40,312 nt of DNA from Pseudomonadota bacterium (GTDB lineage: Bacteria; Pseudomonadota; Alphaproteobacteria; SP197): assembly GCA_039028155.1 (NCBI GenBank), contig JBCCIS010000047.1, forward strand, positions 1 through 40,312. The letters run 5' to 3'. The notes under the pieces were generated by a model. The model was not told the origin of the DNA. It saw only the letters and a program-made list of their open reading frames with translations, and made no database searches. The position numbers and the translations under genes were made by a program. Below, piece by piece: positions 30,957-35,549 of this stretch. Position 1 is the stretch's first letter. Each line of letters opens with the position of its first letter.

Positions 30957-32711
30957 TTACTTGCCCCAACACTCCACCAGGTGGGTGAACTCCTCGGCGC
31001 TGTCGGCAATATCCGTCGTTTCCAGTTCTTCCGTCGAGGTCGCCGTCTGATAGGCGACATCCTGGGAATCGAGGAAAATCAGGGCGATCTGCGTCTTGAT
31101 GGCGAAGTTTACATTTTGAGGTGAGACGTCGTCGTAACCTCTCACCAGCTCCGAGGAGACGACGCCGATGACATTGCCGCTGCTGTCCAGCAGCGGTCCG
31201 CCGCTGTTGCCGGGCTGGATCGGCGCGGTGAACTGGTACTCGCGGATGTCTTCGTTGAAGCCGACCAACGCGCTGATCGTGCCGACAGTAATGTTGCCGG
31301 ATGACGAAAGGGTGCCTTGAAGCGGGAAGCCAATGGCGACCACGGTCTCGCCACGCTGCACACGAGGGCTGTCGCGAAACGCCGCCGTCTTGATCGTGTC
31401 GGGATCGGCCTCCGGCAAGCGCAGCAAGGCCAAGTCGTTGCCCGGATCTGCCGCGACCACGTCGGCGACGCCATAGTCCTCGACCGTCACCTGCAGGCAG
31501 CCGTCGATGACGTGTTGATTGGTCAGCATCTCGCCGCGCGAGGTTATGAAAAAGCCTGTGCCCGTGCCCCACAACGTCAGCTTCGGCAAAGACGATTGCT
31601 CGTTTTCGGCAATGCGCAGGCGGTTGTTGAGGCTCTCGCGCAACGATGTCAGCAGCTCTTCGTCGATGGCGCCGCTGGTCGGCAGTCCCTGAGCGCTCTG
31701 GTAGGCGCTAACCGCTTCCCGGGTGTTAGGGCCGGCGATGCCATCGATTGCGCCGACATCGTAGCCAAGCGCGGCCAGCAACTCCTGGGCGGCGCGGACC
31801 AGGGCCGTGGTCTCGGCGGCGCCGGTTTCCTCGGCATCTTCGATCTGCTCGGGCGTCAGGACGGCGCCGATCTTGTCGCGTAACTCGGCGGCGCCCGGCT
31901 CGTCCTGGGCAGCGGCCAAGTCGAGCCACTCATAAGCCTCGACGAGGTCCTTCTGCACGCCAAGCCCGTCATAGAGCATGCGTCCCAGCGCAGCTTGCGC
32001 ATAGGAGTCGCCGAGCTCGGCAGCGCGCCGGTACCAGCCGACGGCCGTGCGGTAGTCTTGCGGCACGCCATAACCGTTCTCGTAGAGATAACCGAGACTC
32101 GACAGAGCGAACGTGTCGTCGTCGTCGGCGGCGCGCTCGTACCATGTTGCCGCGATGGCATAGTCCTGCGCGACGCCGTAGCCATTCTCGTAGAGGAAAC
32201 CGACATTGCGCTCAGAAAACGATTCCCCCTGCTTGGCCGAGCGAAGGAACCACGTCATCGCTTCTTCGTAATCCAGCTTTACGCCAAGACCGTAAGCGTA
32301 GAGGTAACCCAGGTTGCCCTGGGCATAGCTATCGCCCTGCTCGGCGGCCTGGCGATACCAGTTGGCAGCCATGCGGTAGTCCTGGGGAACGCCTAGGCCG
32401 GTATCATAGAGGTAACCAAGGTTGCCCTGGGCATAGGCGTCACCCTGTTCGGCGGCGCGGCGATACCAGTCCGCGGCCTGGGTGTAGTCCTGCTGCACGC
32501 CAAGACCGAACTCATAGAGATAACCGATATAGGACTGCGCGGCGGCATCGCCCTTGCTGGCGTAGCCGATCCACTCTTGATAGGCGGTTTCGTAGTCGCC
32601 GCGATCGAAGGCGTCCCAGCCGGAATCGATATCTGCGGAGGCCGGTGCCGCCAGTATCGCCATCACAGCAAGGGCCAGCATGGAGTGCAGAAGACGGTGC
32701 ATCACGCTCAT
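30957..32711 (-). CDS. Secreted Sel1-repeat/peptidoglycan-binding/trypsin-like protein
   Basis: 584 residues from ATG 32711 (AGGGGA ten bases upstream; ATG 32702 also possible). Signal peptide 1-26 ends ASA. Six Sel1-like repeats of 36 residues follow (about 58-270), then a peptidoglycan-binding-type helical domain (about 303-357). The final part is a chymotrypsin-fold serine protease (380-560) with triad H400 (NQHVIDG), D426 (PGNDLALLRL) and S503 (PIQPGNSGGPLLD). The protein probably acts in the periplasm near the cell wall and may be processed or activated by binding. This domain order is rare to my knowledge. No PDZ domain is visible. Confidence 0.9.
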   Translation of the reverse strand: MSVMHRLLHSMLALAVMAILAAPASADIDSGWDAFDRGDYETAYQEWIGYASKGDAAAQSYIGYLYEFGLGVQQDYTQAADWYRRAAEQGDAYAQGNLGYLYDTGLGVPQDYRMAANWYRQAAEQGDSYAQGNLGYLYAYGLGVKLDYEEAMTWFLRSAKQGESFSERNVGFLYENGYGVAQDYAIAATWYERAADDDDTFALSSLGYLYENGYGVPQDYRTAVGWYRRAAELGDSYAQAALGRMLYDGLGVQKDLVEAYEWLDLAAAQDEPGAAELRDKIGAVLTPEQIEDAEETGAAETTALVRAAQELLAALGYDVGAIDGIAGPNTREAVSAYQSAQGLPTSGAIDEELLTSLRESLNNRLRIAENEQSSLPKLTLWGTGTGFFITSRGEMLTNQHVIDGCLQVTVEDYGVADVVAADPGNDLALLRLPEADPDTIKTAAFRDSPRVQRGETVVAIGFPLQGTLSSSGNITVGTISALVGFNEDIREYQFTAPIQPGNSGGPLLDSSGNVIGVVSSELVRGYDDVSPQNVNFAIKTQIALIFLDSQDVAYQTATSTEELETTDIADSAEEFTHLVECWGK

Positions 32712-32935
32712 TAGCCATCGATCCCCTGATTTCACATCGGTACTTATAGCGTCCAATGCGTGCTGGACCAAGAAACAGGCCCGATTCGGGTGGATTCCCC
32801 CAACTTTACTTGGTCGATTATAGTCAAACGGGTGTTTCGGTGCTGTAACGACGACCACACTCTGTCCTGTCTTGCCGACGAGGCCTCAGGCGATATGCTC
32901 GCGCGGCCGCGCCAGAACAGAGGAACTGCCCGTCC

Positions 32936-34069: not shown

Positions 34070-34430
34070 AAGCGGCCGCCCCGGCGCGGAATCCGGGACG
34101 GCCAGAGGGGGACAAGTGCCGCGTTCTCAGGAAAGAACGCGTTGGGATCCGGTCCTTCGGCCAGGACCATGGGCAAGATCGCAACGTGCCTGGCTTCATC
34201 GCCCGGAATGGATGCCCCGACTTTGGGGGGTCGCGATCCTCAAGCGCTGGCACCACGCCGAGGTCGGCGTTAAGGCTCCTGCCTCCAGATCGGCAGCAAT
34301 CGATAGAGCGTCGCCTTCTGCCTTGATCGACTCGAGCGGGACGTCGTACTGCGCCGCCTGCTTTCCGGAACAGGCTACGCCGGCTGATCAAGCCACGAAA
34401 CGAAAATGGTGTTGCTGTCGGCTCGCTCAT
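34070..34430 (-). pseudogene. Broken Tat-type ferritin-like gene
   Basis: An ATG at 34430 with AGGAAG eight bases upstream opens MSEPTATPFSFRGLISRRSL, a twin-arginine start. The frame then becomes meaningless. A second minus frame carries CSGKQAAQYDVPLESIKAEG and ADLEAGALT. A third frame carries ASIPGDEARHVAILPMVLAE and DPNAFFPEN, which resemble the conserved C-terminal end of secreted ferritin-like proteins. At least two frame changes and missing middle parts separate these segments. It is read as a decayed gene behind the sigma/anti-sigma gene. Apart from this, 34067-34489 holds nothing I can support. Sequencing error is possible but would need several. Confidence 0.5.
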
Positions 34431-34489
34431 ATCGGGTGCTTCCTGTCGGCCATGGAGTTACCCGTCAGGCGCTGGCCTGGATGCAGCGC

Positions 34490-35449
34490 CTAGAGAAGAA
34501 CCTGCAAAACGACCAGGCCGATGACGGCCGCGCCGAGTGCCAGGGCGATGGGCCGCCAGAATGTCGGCTCGGTGGCGACGCGCTGCGTCCCATGCGGCAA
34601 GGCGCCGGCAATTCGGCGCCAAACCGCGCCATCGACATCCCCATCGGGCAGTGTGTCGACCAGGACGGCCAGTGCGTACTCCCACCGGTCAGCCATTTGA
34701 CACAGTCGCGCATCTTGATCGCGAAGCCTTGCGAAACGACTGCGTGCGGGGCCACGCAAAAGGCCCAGGACGTACTCGCCCGCCAGCGCATCCTTAACGC
34801 CGATCTCCTGCTCGCTGCCTTCAAGGCAGTTGCGAAGCCGCATCATGCCGCGCCTGATAGCGCTCTTGGCGGTGCCCAAGGGCAGTTGCAGACGTTCGGC
34901 AAGCTCCCTGTGGCTCAGACCCTCGAAATAGGCGAGCGTTATGGCGCGGCGCTGGGTATCCGGCAGACGTTGAAGACAACCGGCGAGCACCTGTGTTTCC
35001 TGCCGGCGCATGGCCTGCTCAAGGGCATCCGGTTCGTTACTGACTGTTTCGCGCGCGTCAAGTTCCGGGCTCGACGGAACCTCGCGGCCGCCGCGTATGG
35101 CAAGTGTCAATGCGACGTTACGGGTAACTGTGACAATCCAGGCATAGCCCGATCCCTTGCCGGGGTCATATCGATGGGCCCAGCGCCAAATTCGAAGATA
35201 GGCGCTTTGCAGGGCATCTTCAGCACGATCGGGTTTGCGTAGGATCTTCATGCAGAGCGCGAAGAGTTTGCCATGGGTTAGATCGTAGAGGCGAGCAAAG
35301 GCGTCTTGATCGCCGCGTGCGGCCGCCTCGATTAACGCCGCGAGTGGGTCGCTTGCGGTTGCGCCGCACGGCGTCGGCGCGTCGCCGATTGGCACAGGAC
35401 CATCGCGCGCGGATGCCTTGGTCTTGGACAGAGGAACAACATTTTCCAT
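34490..35449 (-). CDS. ECF sigma factor fused to a membrane anti-sigma domain
   Basis: 319 residues. Residues 36-105 are sigma region 2 (DAFARLYDLTHGKLFALCMK, RAEDALQSAYLRIWRW), and 148-206 are region 4 (LPDTQRRAITLAYFEGLSHR, GTAKSAIRRGMMRLR). Without a stop the frame continues into 218-285, DALAGEYVLGLLRG through WEYALAVLVDTLP, which is the helical anti-sigma domain of RskA-type proteins, and ends with one membrane helix (300-318). No in-frame ATG, GTG or TTG occurs between Met203 and this domain. The usual extracytoplasmic part after the helix is absent. A sigma factor tethered to its own membrane inhibitor is inferred. A recent deletion of the stop is the alternative. Confidence 0.85.
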   Translation of the reverse strand: MENVVPLSKTKASARDGPVPIGDAPTPCGATASDPLAALIEAAARGDQDAFARLYDLTHGKLFALCMKILRKPDRAEDALQSAYLRIWRWAHRYDPGKGSGYAWIVTVTRNVALTLAIRGGREVPSSPELDARETVSNEPDALEQAMRRQETQVLAGCLQRLPDTQRRAITLAYFEGLSHRELAERLQLPLGTAKSAIRRGMMRLRNCLEGSEQEIGVKDALAGEYVLGLLRGPARSRFARLRDQDARLCQMADRWEYALAVLVDTLPDGDVDGAVWRRIAGALPHGTQRVATEPTFWRPIALALGAAVIGLVVLQVLL

Positions 35450-35549
35450 CGCAACCGCCTTTCGCCACTATACTCGCGGCGTCATCGCGGGGATGCACCG
35501 GTCACGAAAAAATGTGCTGGCGTCCGCGCTTGGTAAAGGAGAGGACCTC

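Follow-up and report, generated by a model that had tools for sequence, protein, structure and literature searches.

A SigK-type ECF sigma factor fused to an RskA-type anti-sigma domain and a membrane helix looks like a self-contained variant of a two-protein stress switch

Sigma/anti-sigma pairs are usually held to require an outside sensor together with either proteolysis or the dissociation of two proteins. The locus described here lies on an alphaproteobacterial contig (JBCCIS010000047.1), whose positions 1 to 40,312 are called the window below. It raises the question of what becomes of such a switch when both partners occupy one reading frame: is the fusion real and conserved, and how could a sigma factor that carries its own inhibitor be turned on?

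The gene in question is a single uninterrupted frame (Table 1). Pfam places Sigma70_r2 (PF04542) and Sigma70_r4_2 (PF08281) in its product, with no region 3, and TIGR02937 scores above its cut-off, which is the makeup of an ECF sigma factor. The best NCBIfam model is that of SigK (PRK09646, 158 bits, below the cut-off of 226), and the SigK-type placement rests on SigK being the nearest match in both sequence and fold. The C-terminal ~105 residues, searched alone, matched nothing in Pfam or NCBIfam, and the anti-sigma domain alone found nothing significant among PDB sequences (best RslA, 3hug, E 0.22). Residues ~215–314 resemble, at 38–43% identity, separate frames lying directly behind sigma genes in other genomes; since those separate anti-sigma proteins continue into an RskA_C domain (PF10099; present in loci L010, L117 and L011), the C-terminal part is nonetheless an RskA-type sigma-binding domain. 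Pfam detects no RskA_C in the fused protein itself. The chain stops at the membrane helix, with residues 301–319 strongly hydrophobic (Kyte-Doolittle mean 2.71 over these last 19 residues) and zero residues beyond. Domain matches, homology and hydrophobicity thus agree with an earlier note on this DNA, which had described sigma regions 2 and 4, an RskA-type domain and one helix in a single frame.

Table 1. Coordinates of the fused gene, its parts and its surroundings in the window
Feature	Position	Strand	Remarks
Fused ECF sigma / anti-sigma / membrane-anchor gene	34490..35449	-	319 aa (319 codons); ATG at 35449, stop at 34490
Sigma part	34814..35344	-	Residues 36-212; region 2 (54-115), region 4 (155-205), C158 and C208
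RskA-type anti-sigma domain	34580..34813	-	Residues 213-290; four AlphaFold2 helices; fusion-specific C250
C-terminal membrane helix	34493..34567	-	Residues 295-319; without extracytoplasmic domain
Putative autoregulatory promoter, TGCATCC-N15-GAGTA	35471..35497	-	21 nt before the start codon
Putative second promoter, exact TGCATCC-N15-GGGTA	34459..34485	-	Between the fused gene and the ferritin-like gene
Broken Ferritin_2 remnant, TAT-type exported	34127..34430	-	Compared with the sister genome's intact gene: one deletion of 217 nt, two of 1 nt

The same fusion occurs in a sister genome of the same genus, at 87% identity. A search for it in relatives, which the earlier note had proposed, was extended to wider genome sets and recovered 22 distinct fused homologues in at least 22 genomes and in three alphaproteobacterial orders: 2 in the genus of the window, 15 in the order that includes Reyranella (that of genome G080) and 5 in the order of genome G024. 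Such recurrence excludes chance or a sequencing slip, and the idea of a recently lost stop codon, which the earlier note had named as a possible refutation, falls with it. That the two products are actually separate, through an assembly slip or an internal start for the anti-sigma protein, is accordingly a highly improbable reading. All 22 assemblies, several of them one-contig genomes, carry the fusion in one frame, which refutes a frame error, and the linkers of the window protein and of its 87% relative hold no in-frame ATG, GTG or TTG from which a separate anti-sigma protein could be initiated. The one point in its favour is the fused gene L009 (1465-2412, (-) strand), whose linker has an in-frame ATG behind GGAGGAG; the site is missing from L165, a relative of 80% identity, and may be an internal start in that species only.

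The ending of the protein recurs as well. Among the separate relatives in the tree, the anti-sigma domain begins 6–65 nt from the end of the sigma gene in 65/65 cases by profile match, and mostly 100 or more residues follow that domain, as against about 22–33 in the fused proteins. A C-terminal hydrophobic stretch with 0–5 residues behind it is found in 19 of the 22 fused homologues, so that the truncation which the earlier note had suggested does not read as decay. The exceptions are L149 and L168, without a membrane helix, and L150, with a short one; L168 also has masked bases. L149 (1471-2430, (+) strand), L150 (1489-2421, (+) strand) and L168 may be natural soluble versions, products of frame changes or, in the case of L168, poor sequence. 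Between the window and its sister, dN/dS is 0.050 for the sigma part, 0.061 for the anti-sigma domain and 0.30 for the helix, values that show purifying selection on both halves and a helix kept mainly for its hydrophobicity.

Whether the fusion arose once is less straightforward. An 87-row tree built from the sigma part places two separate pairs, L010 and L117, beside the window lineage among the fused proteins and needs two changes; this might mean two independent fusions. A 30-row tree nevertheless does not reject a single clade of fused proteins (AU p=0.495), and a cysteine in the third anti-sigma helix, C250, occurs in 22/22 fused and in 0/65 separate proteins, which favours one origin. 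The sequences are compatible with one origin. Among viral contigs there was no relative of the fused protein. Plasmids, among the matches listed, held only separate sigma/anti-sigma pairs or a sigma gene alone, and a Reyranella-type query found nothing in them at E 1e-40.

Two further cysteines bear on how the protein might work. C158 and C208, with a spacing of 50, correspond in the alignment to 4nqw_A to SigK C133 and C183, a pair that is required for the full activity of SigK (PMC7509140). The same study found that the RskA anti-sigma domain by itself (residues 1–85) suffices for inhibition, and that a truncated RskA is rare at SigK loci with the cysteine pair, only 0.3% of which have one shorter than 150 aa (PMC7509140). 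C158 is present in 22/22 fused and 65/65 separate proteins and C208 in 21/22 and 65/65. This equal conservation means that the SigK pair alone does not explain the fusion.

Structure prediction supports a cis-inhibited fold. An AlphaFold2 model of the full-length protein, made from an alignment of 19 fused sequences (pLDDT 79.5, pTM 0.73), shows both sigma regions, an anti-sigma domain of four helices (218–283) and a terminal helix (295–318). The closest PDB match by sequence is SigK, 4nqw_A (E 9.4e-41), and regions 2 and 4 of the model are placed relative to each other as in this RskA-bound SigK (Foldseek target TM 0.81, rmsd 4.2). A VIA comparison with 4nqw_A gave Z 15.3 and rmsd 2.7 over 148/148 residues; it spanned residues 32–214 only and is therefore uninformative on the anti-sigma domain. 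When the same alignment was cut at residue 212, the sigma part alone gave pTM 0.45 and matched 4nqw_A at TM 0.54 and rmsd 13.9, a drop which indicates that the closed form seen in the model is imposed by the C-terminal half. Only with that half present is the sigma factor predicted in the closed conformation that SigK takes when bound by RskA, with the caveat that AlphaFold2 may recall 4NQW from training.

A candidate regulon is suggested by the DNA around the gene. A motif of the form TGCATCC-N15-GGGTA, with 0–2 mismatches, lies upstream of 21/21 fused genes examined, always with a spacing of 15 between its boxes and 7–30 nt before the start; in 300 dinucleotide shuffles of each upstream region the same score was reached 0–2 times. 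It was not found upstream of L010 or L117, the nearest separate pairs. In the sister genome, an exact copy of the second promoter sits at the equivalent place, ahead of the ferritin-like gene, and most loci of the Reyranella order have a site resembling it (GCATCC ... GGGTT or nearly so) on the opposite strand, facing the divergent neighbour. A genome-wide regulon defined by the exact motif was considered and rejected: just 1–3 exact sites occur per genome, which is chance level, and the site common to G000 C2 and G001 C190 falls within a reading frame. Of the sites, just those ahead of the sigma gene and of the ferritin-like gene are meaningful.

That neighbour encodes a TAT-type exported ferritin-like protein (Ferritin_2, PF13668), present at 21/22 fused loci, if the broken window copy is included, versus 9/65 separate loci; a cytochrome c gene lies at 19/22 fused loci. 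The window copy is broken behind an intact promoter, and a search of the window genome yielded no second Ferritin_2 match. At the fused locus of Reyranella D1-2020 (L039, 3699-4517, (+) strand), a globin (PF01152) with a signal-like N-terminus replaces the ferritin-like neighbour. Some related separate anti-sigmas (L135, L122, L158, L160, L136 and L012), most of them ferritin-linked, have, by eye, a cupin-like end resembling ChrR and no RskA_C; with others ending in RskA_C, the same clamp domain seems to have been combined with different ends. Elsewhere in the window, the frame at 30957-32858 ((-) strand) encodes, judging from its translation alone, a single polypeptide that holds numerous Sel1-like repeats together with a peptidoglycan-binding-like segment and a trypsin-like protease region.

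Comparison with known systems places the protein closest to SigK-RskA of Mycobacterium tuberculosis and Yersinia enterocolitica (ECF18/ECF19; PDB 4NQW), which it resembles in sequence, fold, cysteine pair and RskA-type sigma-binding domain, the nearest separate relatives having RskA_C as well. SigK and RskA, however, are made as separate chains, RskA with a periplasmic RskA_C, whereas the fused protein is one chain without that domain. Fusions of ECF sigma factors with anti-sigma factors are already known from IutY, ECF48/52/53 and some ECF36 (PMC8999054). IutY of Pseudomonas putida (ECF243) likewise joins a sigma factor and a membrane-bound anti-sigma on one polypeptide, but its anti-sigma domain is periplasmic and works with an outer-membrane receptor, while the protein described here would have a cytoplasmic inhibitor and nothing outside (PMC5411451, PMC8999054). 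No residue extends past its helix, and its neighbours are ferritin-like and cytochrome c genes in place of the TonB-dependent receptor of the IutY type. The actinobacterial groups ECF48, ECF52 and ECF53 (e.g., SCO4117) also carry a C-terminal anti-sigma-like domain and membrane helix on an ECF sigma factor; theirs, however, is a zinc-finger anti-sigma, the extensions reach up to 400 residues, and ECF52 has an extracytoplasmic carbohydrate-binding domain (PMC8999054). Neither the zinc-binding motif Hx3Cx2C of those groups in the aligned anti-sigma domain nor an extracytoplasmic domain was found here. SigE-ChrR of Rhodobacter sphaeroides shares a class I anti-sigma domain sandwiched by regions 2 and 4 (PMC7406223), and several of the related separate anti-sigmas have the ChrR-like ends mentioned above; ChrR differs in being separate, soluble and zinc-binding, without a membrane helix. 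A description of an RskA-type fusion to SigK lacking an extracytoplasmic domain was not found in the literature searched, a search outside which lies the main ECF reclassification (NAR 2021), which may list one.

How, then, might such a protein be switched? We lean, by a modest degree, towards a cis-inhibited, C-tail-anchored SigK-type sigma factor whose clamp responds to a cytoplasmic trigger, most likely thiol oxidation. A SigK-type ECF sigma would have acquired, in the same chain, the sigma-binding domain of its RskA-type partner and the membrane helix behind it, with loss of the periplasmic RskA_C sensor; the anti-sigma domain would fold back between regions 2 and 4 and close the sigma factor in cis, and the C-terminal helix would anchor the protein to the cytoplasmic membrane from inside the cell. 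The clamp may then loosen when C158/C208, perhaps along with C250, are oxidised or undergo some other thiol event. The conserved SigK redox cysteines and the fusion-specific third cysteine suggest a cytoplasmic signal, and by analogy with SigK the trigger is probably redox. Once active, the sigma factor would use promoters of the TGCATCC-N15-GGGTA type to transcribe, besides its own gene, the neighbouring genes for exported ferritin-like protein and cytochrome c. Counting against this reading, 3/22 members have no helix or a shortened one, and the gene presumed to be the target is disrupted in the window genome itself.

The main competitor, which we regard as possible though on the unlikely side, is an IutY-like proteolytic release, in which a site-2 protease would cut the helix and a cytoplasmic protease would trim the anti-sigma domain to free the sigma factor. 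Site-2 proteases accept substrates with short extracytoplasmic tails, and M50 site-2 proteases are encoded by the window genome and its fused relatives; they are, however, also present in 14/14 control genomes, and their presence says little. The precedent is real, in that the IutY hybrid is activated by Prc and RseP and a periplasmic-side truncation of it gives constitutive, RseP-dependent activity (PMC5411451). Yet the lack of an extracytoplasmic domain leaves the fused protein with nothing outside that could receive a signal or offer a target to a site-1 protease, so that cleavage would tend to be constitutive and obligatory proteolysis becomes less likely. Moreover, cutting the helix alone would not free the sigma factor, because the inhibitor lies inside and stays attached in cis, and a protease degrading the chain processively from its C-terminal end would need to halt at the sigma part. 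These considerations favour a cytoplasmic trigger and speak against the earlier view that the protein would need proteolysis to act. It is improbable that the fusion is constitutively locked or vestigial, having lost its sensor and heading for decay. The broken ferritin-like gene, for which the window genome offers no second Ferritin_2 match, the relaxed dN/dS of the helix and the three relatives with a lost or shortened helix would fit such a course, but the dN/dS of 0.05–0.06 in both halves and the retention of the fusion across three orders with conserved promoters do not. A bolder form of the cytoplasmic-trigger reading, which we hold as doubtful, is that the tethered sigma factor works without any proteolysis: a reversible thiol switch of C158/C208 and C250 would open the cis clamp, and the protein would recruit RNA polymerase to genes for exported redox and iron proteins. 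If true, this would be a one-component, membrane-bound, redox-gated sigma factor.

Taken as it stands, the fusion looks like a genuine variant, complete in itself, of a stress switch that normally takes two proteins; in it, a conserved lineage dropped the outside sensor, joined the partners permanently and kept only clamp and anchor. With sigma, clamp and anchor in one gene, plus a clear promoter motif, the system should be tractable in E. coli with a reporter. It would thereby offer a natural test object for two questions about SigK/RskA, namely what role the conserved cysteines play and whether the periplasmic part of RskA is needed for signalling.
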